Source: a virus. Taken from it: DNA of 20,233 nt. Positions within the stretch are counted from its first letter, which is position 1; the number at the start of each line of letters is the position of its first letter. Where the stretch lies: IMG/VR virus record IMGVR_UViG_3300031972_001263, positions 1 to 20,233 of that record. The stretch is one strand, 5' to 3'. The position numbers and the translations under genes were made by a program. Shown one piece after another: positions 1,357 to 19,112 of the stretch. The notes beneath the pieces were generated by a model, which worked only from the letters and a program-made list of their open reading frames with translations, did not search any database and was not told the DNA's origin.

Positions 1357-1656
1357 CTATATGAATTCTATCAAATCGTTATCAACTTTGATAAAACAAT
1401 TTGAACACAGAATTTTTGATTCGCTTATTAGGTGAAATATTTCCTTTCTGCTTTCGTTATTCGTACCCACTCGTTTTGTTAGTTTGCGAATTTGTGAATC
1501 GTGTGGGTGAAACTTTAGACAGATTGTTTCACTTTCACCACAATGCATACAAGATTGTTCTGCCAAAAAATCATTCAATAGAACAATTCTCTTTTGGTAA
1601 TTTCTACGAGCAACCTTTTTGATTGTCTCTTTGTATTTTTCATAGTGTTCATTCAT
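1357..1656 (-). CDS. Small HNH-like zinc-binding protein, antisense
   Basis: This 99-residue protein lies on the opposite strand to all its neighbours, between genes 17 and 18, which are adjacent in T4. Its layout is that of small phage HNH endonucleases: a basic N-terminus, Cys36-x2-Cys39 (CMHCG), a central LKFHPHD (His50, His52, Asp53), then Cys84-x2-Cys87 (CSNC). Phages often carry such free-standing genes as homing endonucleases in intergenic sites. The residue after the last Cys pair is usually His (CxxCH) but here is Phe88, so the active site may be incomplete. The ATG is preceded only five bases upstream by a minus-strand TATAAATA and no Shine-Dalgarno is visible. Its TAG stop abuts the gene 17 stop. 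It may be an active nickase, a decayed one, or a DNA-binding zinc protein. The coding call is firm, the function is inferred. Confidence 0.75.
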   Translation of the reverse strand: MNEHYEKYKETIKKVARRNYQKRIVLLNDFLAEQSCMHCGESETICLKFHPHDSQIRKLTKRVGTNNESRKEIFHLISESKILCSNCFIKVDNDLIEFI

Positions 1657-1661
1657 GATTT

Positions 1662-1669
1662 TATTTATA
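1662..1669 (-). promoter_or_regulatory. T4-type late promoter (TATAAATA) for the antisense HNH-like gene
   Basis: The plus strand reads TATTTATA, which is an exact TATAAATA on the minus strand, five bases before the ATG of the antisense gene. With T4 late-promoter geometry (box at about -13 to -6) transcription would begin at or next to the A of that ATG, giving a leaderless mRNA. Confidence 0.6.
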
Positions 1670-6271: not shown

Positions 6272-6506
6272 TGAAGTTTATCAAACCACAGTTTTTGAGA
6301 AAGATGAACACAAAACATCACAGGAATACAAGAAATTGTCTCCTAAGATGCGAAAAGCTGTCGATTCTATCTTCAAAATCATGGATGCTAAACCTTCAGA
6401 TTTCCTAAATACTTTTGAGAAAACTATAAGAGAAGTGTCTAAAAAGTTTGGTGTTACTGAGAAAGAACTTATGGGATACTTTGAAAAAGAAATGTTAGCA
6501 ACATAG
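6255..6506 (+). CDS. Small protein in the gene 68 position, probable prohead core component
   Basis: This 83-residue protein is basic and helical, with KTSQEYKKLSPKMRKAVDSI and a second helical half, IREVSKKFGVTEKELMGYFE. T4 has gene 68, another prohead core protein, between 67 and 21, and position suggests a similar role, though I cannot align it convincingly to T4 gp68. The start is uncertain: ATG at 6252 and 6255 are both in frame, and AAGG at 6245-6248 gives better spacing (6 bases) for 6255. The reading frame differs from the upstream gene 67-like frame, which it overlaps, so translational coupling is likely. The C-terminal helices might bind another core or capsid protein. Confidence 0.65.
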   Translation: MLKNLDEVYQTTVFEKDEHKTSQEYKKLSPKMRKAVDSIFKIMDAKPSDFLNTFEKTIREVSKKFGVTEKELMGYFEKEMLAT

Positions 6507-6971: not shown

Positions 6972-7621
6972 ATATAAAACTAATTTCAGAATCAATTCAA
7001 GATGTGGAATACATCTGTGAAGAAAAAGAAAACGGTAAAAAAGACTACAAAATTCGTGGCGTCTTTATGCAGGGCGATATTAAGAACCGTAATGGTCGTA
7101 TCTATCCTAAAGATGTGTTGATGAAAGAAGTTGCTAACTATAACAAGAAATTTGTTGACGAGAACAGGGCATTTGGTGAGTTAGGTCATCCAGACGGTCC
7201 TACAGTCAACCTTGAAAGAGTCTCTCACCTAGTTACATCATTAAAACCAGATGGTAGTGATGTTCTTGGTGAGGCTCGTATTTTAGAAACACCTATGGGT
7301 AAAATCGTCAAAACTTTGATGGACGAGGGAACAAAATTAGGTGTTTCATCTAGAGGCATGGGAAGCTTGGACGAAAGAGGTGGTGCCAAGTATGTGAGAG
7401 ATGATTTTTACCTTGCAGCAGCTGCTGATATTGTTGCAGACCCTTCCGCTCCAAACGCTTTTGTAGAAGGTGTTATGGAGGGGAAAGAGTGGGTTTGGAA
7501 TAACGGTTCGTTAATTGAAGCACATGTTGCAGAAGTGAAAAAGAGATTTGATGTTAAAAAGCGTCAAAGGCAAGCGAATATGGAAGCATTAGAGTTTGCT
7601 AAATTCCTCAAGAAATTATAA
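6968..7621 (+). CDS. gp21: Prohead core protein protease gp21
   Basis: This is the maturation protease that cuts scaffold, capsid and itself inside the prohead once assembly is complete. It has 217 residues against 212 in T4. The conserved pieces are YKIRGVFMQGDIKNRNGRIYP (residues about 27-47), AFGELGHP with His74, GVSSRGMGSL with Ser127/Ser128, and AADIVADPSAPNAFVEG. His74 and the Ser of GVSSRG are the likely catalytic pair of this serine protease family. The C-terminus (EALEFAKFLKKL) is a Lys-rich helix, possibly the part removed in self-processing. It starts inside the end of the preceding gene (ATGA overlap), so translation is coupled. Gene 22 follows after a short gap holding a late promoter. 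Confidence 0.95.
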   Translation: MNIKLISESIQDVEYICEEKENGKKDYKIRGVFMQGDIKNRNGRIYPKDVLMKEVANYNKKFVDENRAFGELGHPDGPTVNLERVSHLVTSLKPDGSDVLGEARILETPMGKIVKTLMDEGTKLGVSSRGMGSLDERGGAKYVRDDFYLAAAADIVADPSAPNAFVEGVMEGKEWVWNNGSLIEAHVAEVKKRFDVKKRQRQANMEALEFAKFLKKL

Positions 7622-7655: not shown

Positions 7656-8909
7656 ATGTCTGAATTAGACCAAACAATAGAGGAACTTGAAGCGGAGGTA
7701 TTAGCGGAACTTGAAGAAGCTAGTGAAGCCGACGCTCCGAAAAAAGGTTCTGTCCCTGCCGAGGGGAAGAAGAAACTGAAAACAGTAGGTAATGCTGAAA
7801 TTCAAGATGGCGGTAAAGCGGTTGTTGAACCCGATGCAGCCAGTTCACCAACTGATGTTGCTGCTGATAAAGCATCAGAAGTTTCTGGTGATTCACAACA
7901 GAAAAGTGAAGGCAAGCCTGATCCCATGCAAAAGGTTAAAAAGGTCAGAGCCGAAGCTGCACACGAAGACGAAGATGAAGATGAAGATGAAGATGAAGAC
8001 GATGAAGAAATGTCTAAAAAACAATTGATGGACGCCATGCATAAGAAGATGATGAGCATGAATAAAGAAGACCTTCATGCTGCTTATGGTTCTGTGATGA
8101 ATGGTATGCATACCGAAGAAATTGATGAAGATGAAGTTTCTGAAGTTGTAGAGATGCATATTCAGAACATTGATATCACTTCTGACGTTGAAGCTTTGGT
8201 AGAAGGCGAAGACCTTTCCGAAGAATTTATGGAGAAAGCCGCAACAATCTTTGAGGCGGCTGTTAAATCAAAGACTCGTGAAGAAGTTACACGAATTGTA
8301 GAAGAACAACAAATTGCAATTGCTGAAGAAGTTCACGATTATAAAGAAGCACTTGCAGAAAAAGTAGATCAATACCTCGATTATGTTGTAGAGGAATGGA
8401 TGAAAGAAAATGAGTTAGCAATTGAGCGTGGACTCAAGGGTGAGATTGCTGAAGACTTTATTTCTGGTTTGAAACAGTTGTTTGAAGATCATTACATTGA
8501 CGTTCCAGACGAAAAATATGACGTTCTGGAAGCACAATCTGACAAGATTGCTGAACTAGAAGAGCAGTTGAATTCAATTATGGAAGCTAATATTCAAATG
8601 AATTCAGTTAACTCCGAATTAGTTCGGGAACAGGTCATTCTAGAAGTTGCTTCTGATTTGACCGATACAGAGATTGAGAAGTTTGCCTCTCTAGTGGAAG
8701 ATGTTGACTTTGGGGATGAAGATGGTTTCCGTGCCAAACTCGACACCCTAAAAGAAAGCTATTTTCCAAAAAGTGAATATCTAGAAGAGACTTTTATTCA
8801 TGATGAAGATGATTACGGAAGCGCCGCACAGGACATTGATACGAGTGATACAATGCAAAAATATATGTCTGCTATTGGTCGTGTCGAGACTCGTATTAAC
8901 GGGCGCTAA
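7656..8909 (+). CDS. gp22: Prohead scaffold core protein gp22
   Basis: This is the main internal scaffold around which the prohead shell assembles. In T4 gp21 later cuts it to small peptides. At 417 residues it is much longer than T4 gp22 (269). Its N-terminal third is low-complexity and charged, with an Asp/Glu run (residues about 104-118, encoded by a hexamer repeat); the rest is long helical, coiled-coil-like, rich in Glu, and ends DTMQKYMSAIGRVET, typical of marine gp22. Several sites fit the gp21 rule (Leu/Ile-x-Glu before Ala/Gly): LEE/A at 19-22, LVE/G near 178, IFE/A near 198 and IME/A near 308. It lies between 21 and 23, as in T4. A late promoter at 7624-7631 and AAAGGAG precede the ATG. 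Confidence 0.92.
   Translation: MSELDQTIEELEAEVLAELEEASEADAPKKGSVPAEGKKKLKTVGNAEIQDGGKAVVEPDAASSPTDVAADKASEVSGDSQQKSEGKPDPMQKVKKVRAEAAHEDEDEDEDEDEDDEEMSKKQLMDAMHKKMMSMNKEDLHAAYGSVMNGMHTEEIDEDEVSEVVEMHIQNIDITSDVEALVEGEDLSEEFMEKAATIFEAAVKSKTREEVTRIVEEQQIAIAEEVHDYKEALAEKVDQYLDYVVEEWMKENELAIERGLKGEIAEDFISGLKQLFEDHYIDVPDEKYDVLEAQSDKIAELEEQLNSIMEANIQMNSVNSELVREQVILEVASDLTDTEIEKFASLVEDVDFGDEDGFRAKLDTLKESYFPKSEYLEETFIHDEDDYGSAAQDIDTSDTMQKYMSAIGRVETRINGR
7965..8000 (+). repeat. GAAGAY hexamer repeat in gene 22
   Basis: Six head-to-tail copies of GAAGAT or GAAGAC encode alternating Glu-Asp and lie at the centre of the acidic run of gp22. The near-perfect copies suggest replication slippage and possible length variation between related phages. 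Confidence 0.85.
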
Positions 8910-8956: not shown

Positions 8957-10312
8957 ATGTTTCAAGCAGAACATCTACAAGAAAAGTGGTCGCCAGTCCT
9001 AGAACATCCCGATCTTCCCCAGATTGAAGATGCCTATAAGCGGTCTGTTACCACTGTTATCCTCGAAAACCAAGAAGCTGCTCTAAGAGAAGATGCAGCA
9101 TTCCTTTCGGAATCCGTTCCTACAGGTAATGTTTCCGGTGTATCAAACTGGGACCCAATTTTGATCTCACTAGTTCGCCGTGCAATGCCAAACCTCATTG
9201 CGTATGATGTTTGTGGTGTTCAGCCAATGACAGGTCCAACTGGACTTATCTTTGCAATGCGGGCCCGTCATGCTTCAATGGATGGTGAAGAAGCATTGGT
9301 CGATGAGACAACCGGCGCAGCTGCAAACGGATTCTCTGGTGACTTCTCGAACCAAAACGCTGCTGGTACAACTTCTGGACCAGGCGACATTGGTGCAAGT
9401 GAAAGCAACCCTGCTGCTCTTAATGACAGCCCTTCTGCTGGTACTTACACATTCGCAACTGGTATGACAACAGCACAATCTGAAGCATTGGGTGATAGCG
9501 GAACAAACGCTTTTGCCGAGATGTCATTCAGCATTGATAAGTCAACGGTCACAGCAGTTTCCCGTGCTTTGAAAGCAGAGTATTCAATGGAACTTGCTCA
9601 AGACCTCAAGGCAATCCACGGTTTGGATGCCGAAACAGAACTTGCAAACATTCTTTCAACAGAAATTCTTGCAGAAATCAACCGTGAGGTTGTTCGTTCT
9701 ATCTATAACACTGCTGTTGCTGGCGCTCAAATCAACACAACAACTGCTGGTATCTTTGATCTTGACACCGACTCAAATGGTCGTTGGTCAGTTGAAAAGT
9801 TCAAGGGTTTGATGTTTGCTATCGAGCGTGATGCCAATGCAATTGGTCAACAGACTCGTCGTGGTAAAGGTAACATGATCATCTGTTCAGCTGATGTTGC
9901 TTCTGCACTTCAGATGGCTGGTGTTCTTGATTACACTCCTGCCCTCAACAACAACCTCAATGTTGATGACACATCCACCACATTTGCTGGTGTGATGAAT
10001 GGTCGTTACAAGGTTTATGTTGACCCATATTCAGCTAATGTTGCTGCAAGTCAGTACTATGTTGTTGGATATAAAGGTACTTCACCTTACGATGCTGGTT
10101 TATTCTACTGCCCATATGTTCCATTACAAATGGTTCGTGCAGTTGGTGAAAACAGCTTCCAGCCCAAAATTGGTTTCAAGACTCGTTATGGTATGGCTGC
10201 TAACCCATTTGCCCGTGCTGGTGCAGAGGCCGCTAATACAGCTGCTACAATCTCACTTGCAGCAAATACAAATGCTTACTATCGTCGGGTTAAAGTTACA
10301 AACCTTATGTAA
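8957..10312 (+). CDS. gp23: Major capsid protein gp23
   Basis: This is the HK97-fold subunit of the head shell. It has 451 residues against 521 in T4. T4-type signatures run through it: an N-terminal delta region (LQEKWSPVLEHPDLPQI, ILENQE), RRAMPNLIAYDVCGVQPMTGPTGLIF, ALKAEYSMELAQDLKAIHGL, TEILAEINREVVRSI, NGRYKVYVDPYSA and QPKIGFKTRYGMAANPFA. The likely gp21 cut is after FLSE (Glu52), aligned with FLTE of T4 gp23, but the next residue is Ser53 rather than Ala. Late promoter and strong AAAGGAG lie just upstream, and a UUCG hairpin terminator ends the unit. No vertex paralogue (gp24) follows, unlike T4. Confidence 0.98.
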   Translation: MFQAEHLQEKWSPVLEHPDLPQIEDAYKRSVTTVILENQEAALREDAAFLSESVPTGNVSGVSNWDPILISLVRRAMPNLIAYDVCGVQPMTGPTGLIFAMRARHASMDGEEALVDETTGAAANGFSGDFSNQNAAGTTSGPGDIGASESNPAALNDSPSAGTYTFATGMTTAQSEALGDSGTNAFAEMSFSIDKSTVTAVSRALKAEYSMELAQDLKAIHGLDAETELANILSTEILAEINREVVRSIYNTAVAGAQINTTTAGIFDLDTDSNGRWSVEKFKGLMFAIERDANAIGQQTRRGKGNMIICSADVASALQMAGVLDYTPALNNNLNVDDTSTTFAGVMNGRYKVYVDPYSANVAASQYYVVGYKGTSPYDAGLFYCPYVPLQMVRAVGENSFQPKIGFKTRYGMAANPFARAGAEAANTAATISLAANTNAYYRRVKVTNLM

Positions 10313-10345: not shown

Positions 10346-10373
10346 GGGAGAGCTTCGGCTCTCCCTTTTTTTT
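10346..10373 (+). terminator. Rho-independent terminator after gene 23
   Basis: GGGAGAGC at 10346-10353 pairs perfectly with GCTCTCCC at 10358-10365 around a TTCG tetraloop, followed by eight T (10366-10373). This is a textbook intrinsic terminator, 34 bases after the gene 23 stop, running directly into the next late promoter. Confidence 0.92.
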
Positions 10374-10397
10374 CTTTATAAATAAATGTATCATGTC
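10361..10397 (+). repeat. 37-bp direct repeat, left copy
   Basis: Identical to 13335-13371. It spans the last stem bases and U-tract of the terminator, the late promoter and the first five bases of the next gene (ATGTC). After one mismatch the similarity continues for three more bases. Confidence 0.9.
10377..10384 (+). promoter_or_regulatory. T4-type late promoter for the fibre-like gene
   Basis: Exact TATAAATA only eight bases before the ATG at 10393. By T4 geometry the transcript would carry about three untranslated bases, and no Shine-Dalgarno is present. Confidence 0.75.
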
Positions 10398-12441
10398 GGA
10401 AATAAACAAAATCTTAAAAAATAAATTCGGTATTGATCGTGAATCAAAACCTGTAAAACAGGATAAGTGGTTGAAGTTCCAGCGGCCTATTGAAGAAGAT
10501 TTACTTTTGCAGCAACAACTAATTGAGGCAAAACAGAAATCGATAGAAGAGGAAGAGCTTCAAGACATAGAAGAACAACCCAAACCTGTTGAAAAAAAAT
10601 CCTTATCAGAAGGTGACGCAAAAAAGATAGCTGCGTTCTCTGAACTTATCAAGTCTTTTGGTGCAGAAATCGAACCAGAGATTATAGAAGAGGATTTACA
10701 ATTACAAGTTGAAGATATCACACCTGTTCCTGTTGTCGTTTCACAGACACCAGTTGATATAAGAGAGGCAGTAAAACTTGTTAAGGATAGAACTTTACCC
10801 ACAAAACAAGAAACAATAGAATCAACACAGAAACTTATTACTGATGTTGTAAACAACCTTGAGGACATGAAAGGTAAGACAGAGGTCAAAGAACAAGTAG
10901 ATGAGATAGATGCATTAAGAGGAGAGTTTAACACACTACAAAAACAAGTAAGACAATCACAAATTACAATTGGTGGATTATCTGGAAGTGGTGGTGGACT
11001 TGATCCAAATAAAATTGCACACAGTTTGTTGCCAGCTGCTGATGATACTTTTGATTTAGGTTCTGCATCAAAGCAATGGAGAAACTTATATCTTGGTGGC
11101 AGTACATTAATTGTTGATGGTGCTTCTCTTGCTGCTGATGAGTTATCTGCATTAGATAATATAACTGCTGGTACGGTGGCTGCAAGTAAAGCAGTGATTG
11201 TAGACAGTAACAAAGATATCTCTGGTTTTAGAAATGTTACTCTAACAGGTGATCTGACTGTATCTGGTGATGATATCACAATGGGCACAAACACCGCAGG
11301 CCACATTATGGTCGCAGATGGCACCAACTTTAATCCTGTCGCAGTGTCTGGTGATGTGACGTTGGCATCTAACGGTGCAGTAACAATTGCAAATACTTCT
11401 GTTACAAATGCGATGTTAGCAGGTTCTATTGCTAATGCTAAACTTTCAAATAGTTCAATCACAGTTGCAGATGGTTCAAGCACAACTGCTATTTCTTTGG
11501 GTGGAACAATTACATTTTCTGGCACATCAAATGAAGTTACAGTTGGAGAAAGCTCTGGAACAATAACTGTTGGTTTACCAGATGATGTTACCATTGCTGG
11601 TGACTTGACTGTTAACGGTGACACAACAACGGTAAATACAGCTACTCTTTCAGTAGAAGACCCACTTATTAAACTTGCAAATGGTAACAATTCATCAGAT
11701 TCACTTGATGTAGGATTTTATGGCCTTTATGATACCTCTGGTTCTCAAGACTTATTTGCTGGTTTGTTTAGAGATGCAAATGATAGTGGTAAGTTTAAAT
11801 TATTCAAAGACCTTCAAGCAGAGCCAACCACAACTGTTAACACAAGTGGAACAGGATATGCAGTTGCAACTTTAGTTGCAAATCTTGAGGGAACCATACA
11901 AACAGCGGCACAAACAAATATTACTTCACTTGGCACATTAACCACCCTTACTGTAGATAGTATTATTATAAATGGGACAAATATTGGTCATACAAGCGAT
12001 ACAGATGCTATCGCAATTGCTTCTGATGGTGTGGTTACATTTAGTCAAGTTCCAGTGCTTCCTGCTGATACGATTGAGACAGCTGATATCCAAGATAATG
12101 CTGTAACTCCTGCTAAGATAGCTGGTGCAGTAAATGCTCAAACTGGAACGGCTTACACATCTGTAATTGGTGACGCATTCAAGACAGTTACGATGAGTAA
12201 TGGGTCTGCTAACAAACTTACAATTCCACCTAACAGTAGTGTTGCATATGCCATTGGAGATCGTATCGATGTTGTAATGTTGGGTAGCGGCACAACATCT
12301 ATTCAAGGCGGTTCCGGCGTTACAGTTAACGGAGTATCAACTGGCACCGTAGCTATAGCTGCACAATTTGCTGCGGTATCTTGTCTTAAAATAGCAACTG
12401 ATACTTGGGTGGCAATGGGTAATCACGGTGGGGTGAGTTAA
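10393..12441 (+). CDS. Fibre-like virion structural protein with repeats
   Basis: This 682-residue protein has two parts. Residues 1-190 are charged and helical, with coiled-coil-like Glu/Lys/Gln stretches. From about 195 on it is a Gly/Ser/Thr-rich beta-repeat protein typical of phage fibres: DDTFDLGSASKQWRNLYLGG (about 217-236) is a recurrent fibre motif, LTGDLTVSGDD and IAGDLTVNGDT are internal repeats, and VTNAMLAGSIANAKLSNSSI is another common fibre element. The C-terminus (IPPNSSVAYAIGDRIDVVMLGSG...) looks like a small beta tip. It starts directly after a late promoter with no ribosome-binding site, and the LamG-like gene follows after one base. Function as an adhesion or capsid-attached fibre is inferred. 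It is not a clear homologue of any T4 fibre gene. Confidence 0.85.
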   Translation: MSEINKILKNKFGIDRESKPVKQDKWLKFQRPIEEDLLLQQQLIEAKQKSIEEEELQDIEEQPKPVEKKSLSEGDAKKIAAFSELIKSFGAEIEPEIIEEDLQLQVEDITPVPVVVSQTPVDIREAVKLVKDRTLPTKQETIESTQKLITDVVNNLEDMKGKTEVKEQVDEIDALRGEFNTLQKQVRQSQITIGGLSGSGGGLDPNKIAHSLLPAADDTFDLGSASKQWRNLYLGGSTLIVDGASLAADELSALDNITAGTVAASKAVIVDSNKDISGFRNVTLTGDLTVSGDDITMGTNTAGHIMVADGTNFNPVAVSGDVTLASNGAVTIANTSVTNAMLAGSIANAKLSNSSITVADGSSTTAISLGGTITFSGTSNEVTVGESSGTITVGLPDDVTIAGDLTVNGDTTTVNTATLSVEDPLIKLANGNNSSDSLDVGFYGLYDTSGSQDLFAGLFRDANDSGKFKLFKDLQAEPTTTVNTSGTGYAVATLVANLEGTIQTAAQTNITSLGTLTTLTVDSIIINGTNIGHTSDTDAIAIASDGVVTFSQVPVLPADTIETADIQDNAVTPAKIAGAVNAQTGTAYTSVIGDAFKTVTMSNGSANKLTIPPNSSVAYAIGDRIDVVMLGSGTTSIQGGSGVTVNGVSTGTVAIAAQFAAVSCLKIATDTWVAMGNHGGVS

Positions 12442-12442
12442 G

Positions 12443-13294
12443 ATGCTTCATAGTGTTCCAGCGGGAGTTGTTTCTGCTGCATATTCGTCTTCTTCGCCTA
12501 CTATCGAAACGATACGTGCATCCACAGTGTATACATGGAATTCTACTATTTCAACTACATCTCAAACAATTGCTAACCAAGAATCATCACCAGCAGATGG
12601 TTCATCACAAACAGACTATGATATAATGAATGGTTCCTCAACAGGTTCAGATGCTCGTGATGTTACCTATGTTAGTTCAAGTGGGGGGGAATATTACAAG
12701 CCTGCTAGTAACACAGCCCTCGACTTCTTAACTATGCATACATTTAAAAGCTTAACGGCTTTTACTAATTCACTGCATAAGGAAGATGCAGCATTCACTA
12801 TTGAAATGGGATTTGGAGCGCCTAACCCGCCGCCGACATCGAATATTGGTTACTTTGCATCCACTGCCGAAGATACGGGTGATGTTGGTATACAGGTAAA
12901 GTATGATAATAATAATAAAATAGTGTTTGCTGTTTCTAATGGTAGTGGGTCAAGTTTGGCGTTCTCTCAAACAAGCACAGATGCTGCCGCTAGTGGATTT
13001 AATCATGTGGTAATATCAATTGATGAGGGTGTAACGAATGGTAGTATCATTTATTTGAATGATTCTACCAGTGACACTTTTAGTGCTAATTACAGTTCTC
13101 CATCAACTTCAGCAGCAACTTATAATTGGCATTTCTTAACCTCTTTACAATCACCGCCCGGTGATTTGAGTACACCTCGATTTGCAGTAGGCACGAATTC
13201 TGGTATAGGTTACTTTGCAGTATATAATAAAGCAGTCAGCGCAGAAGAGGCAGGACTACTTTATGATAACGCACCATCTAGATTTAAGATATGA
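12443..13294 (+). CDS. LamG/concanavalin-like domain protein, probable fibre accessory or adhesin
   Basis: This 283-residue protein starts one base after the fibre-like gene, with a G-rich ribosome-binding site inside that gene's end, so the two are translated together. After a Ser/Thr-rich N-terminus of about 90 residues it has the pattern of a LamG-type jelly roll: AAFTIEMGFGAP, GIQVKYDNNNKIVFAVSNGS, FNHVVISIDEGVTNGSIIYL and the closing IGYFAVYNKAVSAEEAGLLY, the usual last strands of this fold. Such domains bind sugars or serve as structural decoration in phage fibres and capsid fibres. There is no signal peptide or membrane segment. A receptor-binding or head-decoration role is inferred from the fold pattern and neighbour. 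Confidence 0.8.
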   Translation: MLHSVPAGVVSAAYSSSSPTIETIRASTVYTWNSTISTTSQTIANQESSPADGSSQTDYDIMNGSSTGSDARDVTYVSSSGGEYYKPASNTALDFLTMHTFKSLTAFTNSLHKEDAAFTIEMGFGAPNPPPTSNIGYFASTAEDTGDVGIQVKYDNNNKIVFAVSNGSGSSLAFSQTSTDAAASGFNHVVISIDEGVTNGSIIYLNDSTSDTFSANYSSPSTSAATYNWHFLTSLQSPPGDLSTPRFAVGTNSGIGYFAVYNKAVSAEEAGLLYDNAPSRFKI

Positions 13295-13321
13295 TAGCTT
13301 GCAAGGTTACTAATAATAAGA

Positions 13322-13347
13322 GAGGTGCTTTTACCTCCCTTTTTTTT
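13322..13347 (+). terminator. Weak rho-independent terminator after the LamG-like gene
   Basis: A five-pair stem (GAGGT at 13322-13326 with ACCTC at 13333-13337), two C, then eight T (13340-13347). The stem is short compared with the one after gene 23, but the U-tract and position are the same. Confidence 0.65.
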
Positions 13348-13371
13348 CTTTATAAATAAATGTATCATGTC
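13335..13371 (+). repeat. 37-bp direct repeat, right copy
   Basis: Identical to 10361-10397, including terminator U-tract, TATAAATA and the ATGTC start of the next gene. With the left copy it brackets the fibre-like and LamG-like genes. Confidence 0.9.
13351..13358 (+). promoter_or_regulatory. T4-type late promoter for the tail-tube-like gene
   Basis: Exact TATAAATA, eight bases before the ATG at 13367. Same geometry as the copy at 10377, with no Shine-Dalgarno. Confidence 0.75.
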
Positions 13372-13948
13372 AGAAGGACCACTCTCAAGACAACCAGATA
13401 AGTTGGATTATTTAAGTCCGACACAATTTCGTTTTGGCATTAACCAATTACCAAAGGTTGAGTTTTTCACCACTGCTGCAAACATTCCCGGCATCAACAT
13501 GGGTGAAGCAATGTTTGACACTCCATTCAAAAATTTTGGTGTTATGGGTGACAAACTGACATATGAAAACTTGGAAATAACTTTTATTGTTGATGAGTTT
13601 TTAGAAAACTATAGGTCATTACATGAGTGGATGACTGCTATAGGATTTCCAAAAGACAGAAAACAGTTCAGAGATTTTAGGTCTAATACATCAAATACAC
13701 CTAGTGCATCTATAAATACTCCCTCAACAGAAAGAGTTGGAGCAACCACTTCAGCAAATGCTTTATTCTCTGACGCTAACTTAATAGTATTGTCCAATAA
13801 AAATAATCCAGTTCTTCAAGTTGATTATCAGAACATATATCCAGTTGCTCTTAGTGGAATACAATTTAGTCAAGACGGTTCAGACGTTCAATATATAACA
13901 TCAAGTGCAACATTCTCATATCAGATATATGAATTTACCACATTATAA
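13367..13948 (+). CDS. Tail-tube-like structural protein
   Basis: This 193-residue protein is a recurrent late structural protein of marine T4-like phages. Its plan resembles the gp19 tail tube family: FRFGINQLPKVEFFTTAANI, then PGINMGEAMFDTPFKN, a strand pair GDKLTYENLEITFIVDE, the helix NYRSLHEWMTAIGFP and final strands VQYITSSATFSYQIYEF. The gp19 of this window shows the same order (RASSLPAF, GDRTFDDPWTTTFLND, NSLELWSNGI). It might be a tube or baseplate tube protein, or fill the tail-completion slot (gp3) found near gene 23 in some relatives; I cannot decide. The true start is the ATG at 13367, directly after the repeat-borne late promoter, because upstream in-frame codons lie in the terminator. 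uvsY follows after nine bases. Confidence 0.75.
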   Translation: MSEGPLSRQPDKLDYLSPTQFRFGINQLPKVEFFTTAANIPGINMGEAMFDTPFKNFGVMGDKLTYENLEITFIVDEFLENYRSLHEWMTAIGFPKDRKQFRDFRSNTSNTPSASINTPSTERVGATTSANALFSDANLIVLSNKNNPVLQVDYQNIYPVALSGIQFSQDGSDVQYITSSATFSYQIYEFTTL

Positions 13949-17493: not shown

Positions 17494-18030
17494 ATGGCAA
17501 AGAAAAAAGGTATTCATTATGTAGACAATAAACAATTTCTACAAGCAATGATTGAATGGCGTGAAGAATATGATCTCGCAGAAGAGAATGGAAAACAAAC
17601 ACCACCTGTAACAAACTACATTGGTGAATGCTTTCTAAAGATTGCTACTCATCTAGCTTATAAACCAAACTTTATTAATTACACATATAGAGAAGATATG
17701 GTTTCTGATGGTATCGAAAACTGCCTGCAATATGTTAAAAACTTCAATCCAGAAAAATCAAAAAATCCTTTCGCATACTTTACGCAAATCATCTATTACG
17801 CTTTCCTTAGACGAATTGCGAAAGAGAAGAAACAAAGTCACGTTAGAAATAAAATGATTGAGCGTGACGCATATGATTCATTCACCACAATGGAAGGAGA
17901 TGATTCTTCTTATTATGTTGAGGGAATTGATACTAAATTATTCTTACCAGAAGAAGATGTTTATAAACCAAAGAAAAAAGAGCCAGCAAAGAAAAAAGGG
18001 TTGGAAGTTTTTATGGAGAAAGACACTTGA
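17494..18030 (+). CDS. gp55: Late transcription sigma factor gp55
   Basis: gp55 is the small sigma-like factor that directs host RNA polymerase to TATAAATA late promoters, linked to the gp45 sliding clamp. It has 178 residues against 185 in T4. The match includes YVDNKQFLQAMIEW (T4 YVNNKELLQAIIDW), YREDMVSDGIENCLQYVKNF (T4 [20 protein letters not shown]) and KNPFAYFTQIIYYAFLRRIAKEKK, the sigma-region-2-like core. The C-terminus GLEVFMEKD parallels the clamp-binding SLDFLYE of T4. A Lys-rich linker (KPKKKEPAKKKG) joins it to the core. TTGGAG precedes the ATG and a sigma70-type promoter lies upstream. The stop overlaps the TTG start of gene 47. Confidence 0.95.
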   Translation: MAKKKGIHYVDNKQFLQAMIEWREEYDLAEENGKQTPPVTNYIGECFLKIATHLAYKPNFINYTYREDMVSDGIENCLQYVKNFNPEKSKNPFAYFTQIIYYAFLRRIAKEKKQSHVRNKMIERDAYDSFTTMEGDDSSYYVEGIDTKLFLPEEDVYKPKKKEPAKKKGLEVFMEKDT

Positions 18031-19112
18031 AAATTGCATTGATTACTGATACTCATTTTGGCGCTAGAAATGACAACGCAAATTTTAATGATTATTTTTA
18101 TAAGTTCTATGAGGGTGTGTTCTTTCCATACTTACATCAGCATGGCATAAAAACTTGCATTCATTTGGGTGATGTTATGGATCGTAGAAAGTTTGTTTCG
18201 TACAAGACTGCGAAAGACTTTCGTGAAAGATTTATATTGCCATTCAGTCAACTGGAAGTTAATTTACACATGTTGGTTGGTAACCATGACACCTTCTATA
18301 AGAATACTAACGATGTGAACTCACTACAGGAACTTGTAGGTGGTAAATTTCGCAACATTAAGGTATACCCAGAAGCACAAGAGGTAGACTTTGATGGGTG
18401 TAAAATTCTTTTCATGCCTTGGATAAACAGTCAAAATTATATTCATTCTATGGGTATGATTGATGAGACAACTGCTCAAATTTGTATGGGCCATTTAGAG
18501 TTGAATGGCTTTGAGATGCAGAAGGGTATGTATATGGATCATGGCTGGGACAAGCAAGAGTTTAGAAAGTTTGATACAGTTATGAGTGGTCATTATCATC
18601 ACAAGTCAGATGATGGTCAGGTGTATTATCTCGGCACACCATATGAAATCTATTGGAATGATTGGGAAGACCCAAAAGGATTTCATATATTTGATACAGA
18701 GACAAGAGAGCTTGAGCGTATTGTAAATCCATACAACATCTTTTCCAAGATTTACTATGATGATACAGTTAATGATTATAGTCATATGATTGGCCCTTCT
18801 GCGACTGCTTATGATTTTCAAAAATATAAGAATAAGTATGTGAAACTGGTGGTAGTCAATAAGAAAGACCTATTCCAGTTTGATCAATTTGTTGATAAGC
18901 TCTTGACAGCAGACTGTCATGATGTTAAGATTGTTGAAGACTTTTCAGAGATGGATGCGAACAATGTATCTGATGATATCGTTGAGAATACAGAAGATAC
19001 GATGACATTGCTGGAAAAATATATTGACGAGTTGTCCGTAGACCTAAGTAAAGATAGACTGAAAAATACAATGAGAACCTTATATACTGAAGCACAGGAT
19101 TTGGAAATTTGA
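18027..19112 (+). CDS. gp47: Recombination nuclease subunit gp47 (Mre11-like), TTG start
   Basis: gp47 is the Mre11-type nuclease subunit that, with gp46, resects DNA ends for recombination and host DNA breakdown. It has 361 residues against 339 in T4. All phosphodiesterase motifs are present: DTH (Asp8, His10), GDVMDRR (Asp49), GNHD (Asn86, His87), GHLELNGF (His156) and SGHYHH (His189, His191). The start is TTG at 18027, because the protein then begins MKIALITDTHFG, collinear with T4 MKILNLGDWHLG; GGAG at 18015-18018 is eight bases upstream. The TTG overlaps the gene 55 stop as TTGA. Gene 46 starts in the same way at its end, so the 55-47-46 genes are translationally linked. Confidence 0.96.
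   Translation: MKIALITDTHFGARNDNANFNDYFYKFYEGVFFPYLHQHGIKTCIHLGDVMDRRKFVSYKTAKDFRERFILPFSQLEVNLHMLVGNHDTFYKNTNDVNSLQELVGGKFRNIKVYPEAQEVDFDGCKILFMPWINSQNYIHSMGMIDETTAQICMGHLELNGFEMQKGMYMDHGWDKQEFRKFDTVMSGHYHHKSDDGQVYYLGTPYEIYWNDWEDPKGFHIFDTETRELERIVNPYNIFSKIYYDDTVNDYSHMIGPSATAYDFQKYKNKYVKLVVVNKKDLFQFDQFVDKLLTADCHDVKIVEDFSEMDANNVSDDIVENTEDTMTLLEKYIDELSVDLSKDRLKNTMRTLYTEAQDLEI

Follow-up and report, generated by a model that had tools for sequence, protein, structure and literature searches.

In T4-type phages, composite terminator/promoter elements known as promoter-early stem-loops (PeSLs) reportedly lie at module borders, as Arbiol in 2010 and Comeau in 2014 are said to have described. We analyzed a 20,233-nucleotide (nt) stretch of viral DNA, IMG/VR record IMGVR_UViG_3300031972_001263 (positions 1 to 20,233, here called the window), in which a 37-bp repeat of comparable design brackets a cassette of two genes, fib (fibre-like) and a LamG-like gene, located between the major capsid protein gene, g23, and a gp3-type tail completion gene (gp3). 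As in PeSLs, a composite terminator/promoter stands at the borders of swapped genes and offers short homology for exchange. Unlike PeSLs, the unit carries a late promoter, TATAAATA, rather than an early sigma-70 promoter, includes the start codon, and occupies one core locus, apparently being the spacer that ancestrally lay between two core genes, whereas PeSLs are scattered through hyperplastic regions. Although the unit functions in the manner of a PeSL, its promoter class and location set it apart, and we do not class it as one. We consider it likely that the g23/gp3 junction of marine T4-like phages is a docking site for accessory genes, and that the 37-bp repeat is a duplicated ancestral spacer.

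Variable accessory genes, metabolic or fibre related, are described between conserved structural genes for the cyanophage g15/g17-g18 region and for the pelagimyophage VrlC-gp14 host recognition cluster (PMC2984593, PMC7029224, PMC3037559). In contrast to such hyperplastic regions and to the host recognition cluster, the site studied here lies between g23 and gp3 and usually holds 0 to 3 kb, or 0 to 3 genes; within the parts of the literature reached under the terms tried, no description of it as variable was found. The promoter has the exact TATAAATA box of the T4 late promoters read by gp55, and a gp55-like gene is present in the window, but the distance from box to ATG is 5 nt in most relatives and 8 nt in the window, with no Shine-Dalgarno sequence, a class absent from T4. 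In T2-type phages, the fibre gene gp37 is followed directly by gp38, a gene with a conserved N-terminus and an exchangeable body. The cassette likewise consists of a fibre gene and then a tip-type gene with a conserved N-terminus and an exchangeable body, although the sequences are unrelated, the putative tip is LamG-like, and the pair is located behind g23 instead of among the tail-fibre genes.

The repeat and the junction it occupies

The two copies of the repeat (10361-10397 and 13335-13371) are identical over 37 bp and start 2,974 bp apart; the match lengthens to 41 bp if one mismatch is included. Each copy contains, in order, CTCCC, which is the end of the 3' arm of a terminator, a U-tract of eight T residues, the exact TATAAATA, and ATGTC, which is the start of fib in copy 1 and of gp3 in copy 2. 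Across the window TATAAATA occurs 7 times, against an expectation of 1.24, and the 24-nt core of the repeat occurs twice, with no shuffled sequence containing even one. The hairpin of copy 1 is strong (Table 1); that of copy 2 is weaker (-7.9 to -8.3 kcal/mol), is formed by another stem, and has one mismatch. Nothing but fib and the LamG-like gene lies between the copies, and an in-frame start is regained when 10397 is joined to 13372. An earlier note on this DNA had reported the repeat, its terminator, promoter, and start-codon content, the two enclosed genes, and the correct join that recombination would leave; each of these points stood.

The repeats are direct, with no transposase between them, so the element has neither the transposase nor the terminal inverted repeats of a transposon or insertion sequence. 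No endonuclease gene, the mark of a homing element, was found among the cassette genes by inspection of open reading frames (ORFs) and of Pfam and PHROG profile matches. An assembly artefact was rejected as the source of the repeat, as both copies are present on other contigs (relatives are cited by their locus handles): L003/L006, which is near-identical to the window overall and up to 7% divergent at about 14.8 to 15.0 kb, and L004, which is more distant and whose two units differ at 3 positions.

A search with the gp3-type protein returned 80 loci, and a second search, with a distant copy as the query, returned 80 more that partly overlapped the first; the survey set comprised the 103 distinct loci having both flanks, g23 and gp3. 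Junctions were called empty where gp3 came directly after g23, within 130 bases. This was the case at 66 of the 103 loci, and exactly one late box was present in 64 of these 66. Relatives that lack the two genes and keep a single unit, for which the earlier note had suggested looking, are the majority. The spacers of empty sites are built like the repeat (hairpin, U-tract, TATAAATA, start codon), and when the window flanks were joined by script, the product aligned without a break to naturally empty sites, L012 among them, the hairpin, the unit, and the beginning of gp3 all falling in register. The junction is also empty in the cultured phages Melnitz and Mosig.

At the filled junctions (37/103), the inserts are unrelated to one another and measure roughly 0.2 to 3 kb, sometimes with two or three genes together. 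The genes found there encode aspartate/ornithine carbamoyltransferase, fatty acid desaturase, NMT1-like and PstS-like binding proteins, a piece of a Na/Pi cotransporter, and small unknown ORFs. Among cultured cyanophages, the junction of P-SSM7 holds tRNAs and a tRNA ligase, and that of S-CAM3 an HNH endonuclease and a hypothetical gene; small-ORF inserts are seen in S-BM3 (five), Syn1 (two), and S-PM2 (one). The pelagiphage HTVC008M has one insert gene, and in T4 the homing endonuclease gene segD lies directly 3' of g23. Promoters at filled sites are placed ahead of the insert, ahead of gp3, or both, and near-identical units at both ends were found only with the fib cassettes. Because many of the inserts are metabolic or unknown genes, the g23/gp3 junction appears to be a general accessory site and not a dedicated host-range site. 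The suggestion of a swap site for host-interaction genes is largely borne out at the family level as regards swapping, and the fib and LamG-like proteins do look like host-interaction proteins, but it is too narrow for the site as a whole.

The right flank had been called tail-tube-like. The gene belongs to the phrog_45 tail-tube family, but by homology and position we identify it as the gp3-type tail completion gene of marine T4-likes; gp3, or tail completion, is annotated in the same position in S-PM2, HTVC008M, P-SSM7, and S-CAM3. In L052, L054, and L065, gp3 is 61 to 63% identical to that of the window and has a Shine-Dalgarno leader, while the g23 and uvsY proteins are 89 to 99% identical; in these loci gp3 itself appears to have been swapped. 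Inserts of about 450 to 670 bp are also present at the next junctions downstream, in the gap between gp3 and uvsY in L021, L023, and L042 and in that between uvsY and a 2-oxoglutarate (2OG) oxygenase gene in L054.

Movement of the fib cassette

Carriers of the fib cassette were the window, its near twin L003/L006, L004, L091, L092, L093 (the contig of L005), and L094; no others were found. Since L052 is empty and L092 and L093 are filled, with 96 to 97.5% identity in g21-g23 among them, the presence and absence of the cassette segregate within one lineage. The spacer of L092 equals that of L052 for 65 nt, ending at the U-tract end TTTTTTTCTTT; past this point, some 11 bases of foreign sequence precede another T-tract, with CTTT, and then the box and fib, which places the switch inside the unit. 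At the right junction of L094, the cassette leader and the first 24 nt of gp3 are followed by gp3 of another lineage (84% identity to L030-L039).

The window and L004 share a block, 10880-13432, that is about 99.7% identical, whereas the 5' part of fib, g23, and the rest of gp3 are 58 to 97% identical. This pattern points to a recent exchange of a block of about 2.5 kb with its ends within fib (about 10880) and gp3 (about 13432). Four-taxon site counts for g23 gave 24 sites uniting the window with L091 and 1 uniting it with L004; for the 3' part of fib, 8 or 14 sites united the window with L004, and none united it with L091. By these counts the history of the cassette differs from that of g23. 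A cassette phylogeny matching that of g23 had been named in advance as evidence against a swap, and the two proved discordant.

We propose the following route. In the ancestral, empty state, one compact spacer would have led from the U-tract of the g23 terminator into a T4-type late promoter ending at the gp3 start. By T4 late-promoter geometry (see below), the mRNA would be leaderless or nearly so, and the promoter could not be separated from the start codon. Any gene that arrived and was joined to this unit at its ATG would become a terminated, late-expressed module, with g23 and gp3 untouched. By such a join the two-gene module of fibre and LamG tip would have entered the window phage, ending up with the unit on both flanks, and the 37-bp repeat would be the recipient's unit, either duplicated or later homogenised. 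The cassette would then have been spread and reshuffled by homologous recombination between related phages, for which the units, conserved stretches of fib, and the gp3 start would provide the homology. We infer both the direction of the event, gain and not loss, and the duplication step.

Several observations weigh against this route. Most other inserts are not flanked by matching repeats, so that insertion with bracketing repeats is not the usual mode. The only datable exchange, that between the window and L004, has its left break away from repeat 1 and extends on the right about 68 nt into gp3. The contigs of L092 and L093 end before gp3, and no one contig has both junctions of one insertion. 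The gp3 of L094 has an in-frame TGA at codon 7 (L094:2872-2892), at the recombinant junction, which could be an assembly chimera or error or could belong to a dying (broken) recombinant. In principle, the occupied relatives might trace back to an ancestor that was filled, the inserts having been lost repeatedly. No excised form of the window phage was seen among the viral contigs searched.

Because the window/L004 exchange broke inside fib and gp3, the repeats are not the sole crossover points. The proposed recombination across the repeats fits the switches at or near the unit in L092/L052 and in L094, but not the window/L004 exchange. The repeat is best read as one substrate among several for homologous exchange rather than as an independent mobile element.

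Homogenisation of the units by gene conversion or unequal crossing over after the arrival of the cassette would make the repeat a by-product and not a mark of insertion. This explanation has some probability, though on balance we think it unlikely. The two window units differ at no position and those of L004 at 3, and L091, the closest relative by g23, has another fib leader, with a Shine-Dalgarno sequence. However, in L092 and L093 the fib unit already shows the clade's gp3-type leader, so the likeness is older than the window phage, and homogenisation is compatible with the docking-site explanation as a later step.

Cassette proteins and neighbouring genes

The fib protein has a short conserved N-terminus, a variable middle, and a C-terminal part common to fibres of unrelated phages. 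This C-terminal part (about residues 566 to 682), directly followed by a gene beginning MLH(S/V)xPxG, also occurs in L112-L117, L119, L124, and L125, loci with no T4-like neighbours, and the proteins encoded after it in those unrelated phages match tail fibre and virion structural families. The cassette proteins or their relatives match phrog_8780 (minor tail protein) and phrog_24898 (tail fibre). At the g23/gp3 site, the second cassette gene keeps its first 16 codons while its body changes, being either of the window type or, in L092/L093, of another LamG type; LamG homologues at the same place pass the Laminin_G_3 curated cut-off. A structural model of the fib C-terminal part, of medium quality (predicted local distance difference test [pLDDT] score, 73), showed weak likeness by Foldseek to T4 gp10, CBA120 TSP4, and a capsid spike. 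The model of the LamG protein was poor (mean pLDDT, 45). No sequence match to the LamG protein was found in the PDB, and none to the fib N-terminus in 50,697 records of cultured phages.

From these similarities the LamG-like protein is likely the fibre tip (adhesin), and a fibre with an exchangeable tip is our best reading of the pair. In L106-L108, a further address for relatives of the window LamG gene is found upstream of g21, where L106 has two such genes; one of the L106 proteins has domains resembling both LamG types. That the cassette proteins decorate the capsid and do not form a tail fibre is an alternative that we consider unlikely: the cassette does sit after g23, and the capsid spike is the top Foldseek match of the fib C-terminal part, but the two PHROG families and the matches to T4 gp10 and CBA120 TSP4 (model confidence, 73) argue for a tail fibre.

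Table 1. Coordinates of the unit, the cassette, and surrounding features in the window
Feature	Position	Strand	Detail
g23, major capsid protein, left flank	8957..10312	+	Pfam Gp23, E 6.8e-149
g23 terminator	10346..10373	+	Hairpin GGGAGAGC-TTCG-GCTCTCCC plus U-tract; fold -16.5 kcal/mol, z -4.3
37-bp repeat copy 1	10361..10397	+	TATAAATA at 10377-10384, 8-nt spacer AATGTATC, fib ATGTC
fib, fibre-like protein, 682 aa	10393..12441	+	phrog_21978, phrog_8780; C-terminal module in L112-L125; Foldseek
LamG-like protein, 283 aa, N-terminus MLHSVPAG	12443..13294	+	Laminin_G_3, E 3e-5, under curated cut-off
Cassette terminator	13320..13347	+	Weaker hairpin, stem unlike copy 1, plus U-tract; fold -7.9 kcal/mol
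37-bp repeat copy 2	13335..13371	+	TATAAATA at 13351-13358, spacer AATGTATC, gp3 ATGTC; empty-site relatives have the single-copy counterpart
gp3-type tail completion protein, right flank	13364..13948	+	phrog_45 (tail tube), E 2.8e-33
gp55-like late sigma factor	17494..18030	+	Same place as, and 60-67% identity to, annotated late sigma factors of HTVC008M, S-PM2, Melnitz, Mosig

The gp55-like factor would be expected to read the TATAAATA promoters. Elsewhere in the window, a 99-residue HNH-like ORF between g17 and g18 (1357-1669, minus strand) has TATAAATA exactly 5 nt ahead of its ATG; in cyanophages the g17-g18 gap is described as a variable region, and the 3' end of gp17 as carrying remnants of endonucleases (PMC3037559). 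A run of GAAGAT/GACGAA repeats in g22 (7952-8024) encodes a Glu/Asp tract. An additional 2OG oxygenase copy, 45% identical to the first of the two in the window, lies between the counterparts of those two genes in L010, L012, L019, and L021-L023.

Alternative origins of the unit and predicted leaderless transcripts

Insertion could also have been driven by a nuclease, with a homing endonuclease cutting the junction and repair capturing genes. The HNH endonuclease gene at the site in S-CAM3, segD after g23 in T4, and the tRNA genes in P-SSM7 are consistent with such a process, but the window cassette has no endonuclease gene and the filled-site genes identified in viral contigs are not endonucleases, which makes it improbable.

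It is quite improbable that the unit is a PeSL-type regulatory cassette that moves as an element and carries genes along, despite its composite terminator/promoter structure at module borders, as reported for T4-type phages. Among 2.9 million viral contigs, the 27-nt core spanning promoter and start was found in 3, each time at the g23/gp3 junction, and a looser form, TTTATAAATANNTNTATCATGTC, was found in 7, always at this junction and before gp3 or fib. In the window, a search limited to that 20-kb record found no copy of the 37-mer beyond the two, and the promoter is late, not early. A dispersed mobile element was rejected within the collection searched, the promoter-start pattern being confined to the g23/gp3 junction. 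The earlier note's comparison with mobile promoter/stem-loop cassettes holds for the switches at the unit (in L092/L052, and in L094 at most 24 nt past the start codon), but not for the origin and distribution of the unit, apparently the ancestral gp3 spacer and found at one junction only. Within the contigs searched, the unit was confined to this junction, and the content of the junction varies among relatives. Since the core and its looser form lie only before gp3 or fib at this junction, the leader of fib seems to be a copy of the leader that gp3 has in this clade.

Very improbable, finally, is the explanation that all terminator/late-promoter/start units are alike by constraint and that the 37-bp identity holds no insertion history: the U-tract, TATAAATA, and ATG are indeed constrained and found in nearly all empty sites, but 21 in-register pairs of TATAAATA in the multi-promoter gaps of other relatives match over 8 to 16 bases, compared with 37 in the window, the g22 and g23 promoters of the window have little in common beyond the box, and the spacer AATGTATC and the CTT ahead of the box vary freely among relatives, so that chance and mere promoter constraint were both rejected.

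The distance from TATAAATA to the ATG has a bimodal distribution at these loci. It is 5 nt in 41 distinct cases and 8 nt, the value in the window, in 8 distinct cases, none of either with a Shine-Dalgarno sequence, and at least 15 nt in 57 cases, 56 of which have one. Distances of 2 to 4, 6 to 7, and 9 to 14 nt are empty, and a single odd case was seen at 1 nt. For the gp3 genes alone, the spacing is 5 in 54 loci, 8 in 12, and 17 to 19 in 9, all 9 with a Shine-Dalgarno sequence. The T4 late box occupies positions -13 to -6 (PMC2988020). Because of this geometry, a 5-nt gap is predicted to place +1 on the A of the ATG, and the 8-nt gap of the window would give a 3-nt leader. The spacing is 5 in 5 of 13 boxes in HTVC008M and in 0 of 24 in T4, and the spacing-5 ATGs of HTVC008M are the deposited starts of 2OG oxygenase at 6280, csgF at 7562, gp25 at 31132, the baseplate wedge initiator at 49760, and gp2 at 18916 on the reverse strand. 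From these spacings we infer late mRNAs that are leaderless or nearly so, a class predicted in HTVC008M and absent from T4; no account joining leaderless mRNA with T4-like phages was found in the papers searched.

A more tentative idea, tenable but somewhat doubtful, is that the leaderless late promoter and the terminator form a portable plug. Since transcription would start at the ATG itself, any ORF joined at the start codon would become a late gene with no need for a Shine-Dalgarno sequence; the spacer would be a standing gene-capture site for fibres, metabolic genes, and transporters, and leaderless translation would be a normal late-gene mode in marine T4-likes.

The docking-site explanation would give phages a route to add or swap genes behind the capsid gene, in the most conserved part of the T4-type genome, with essential expression undisturbed, the terminator, late promoter, and start codon being already in place in the spacer. 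It would also offer one place to look for the accessory and metabolic genes of abundant marine phages. A further prediction is an apparently undescribed class of leaderless late mRNAs, lacking in T4, in phages of SAR11-type hosts.

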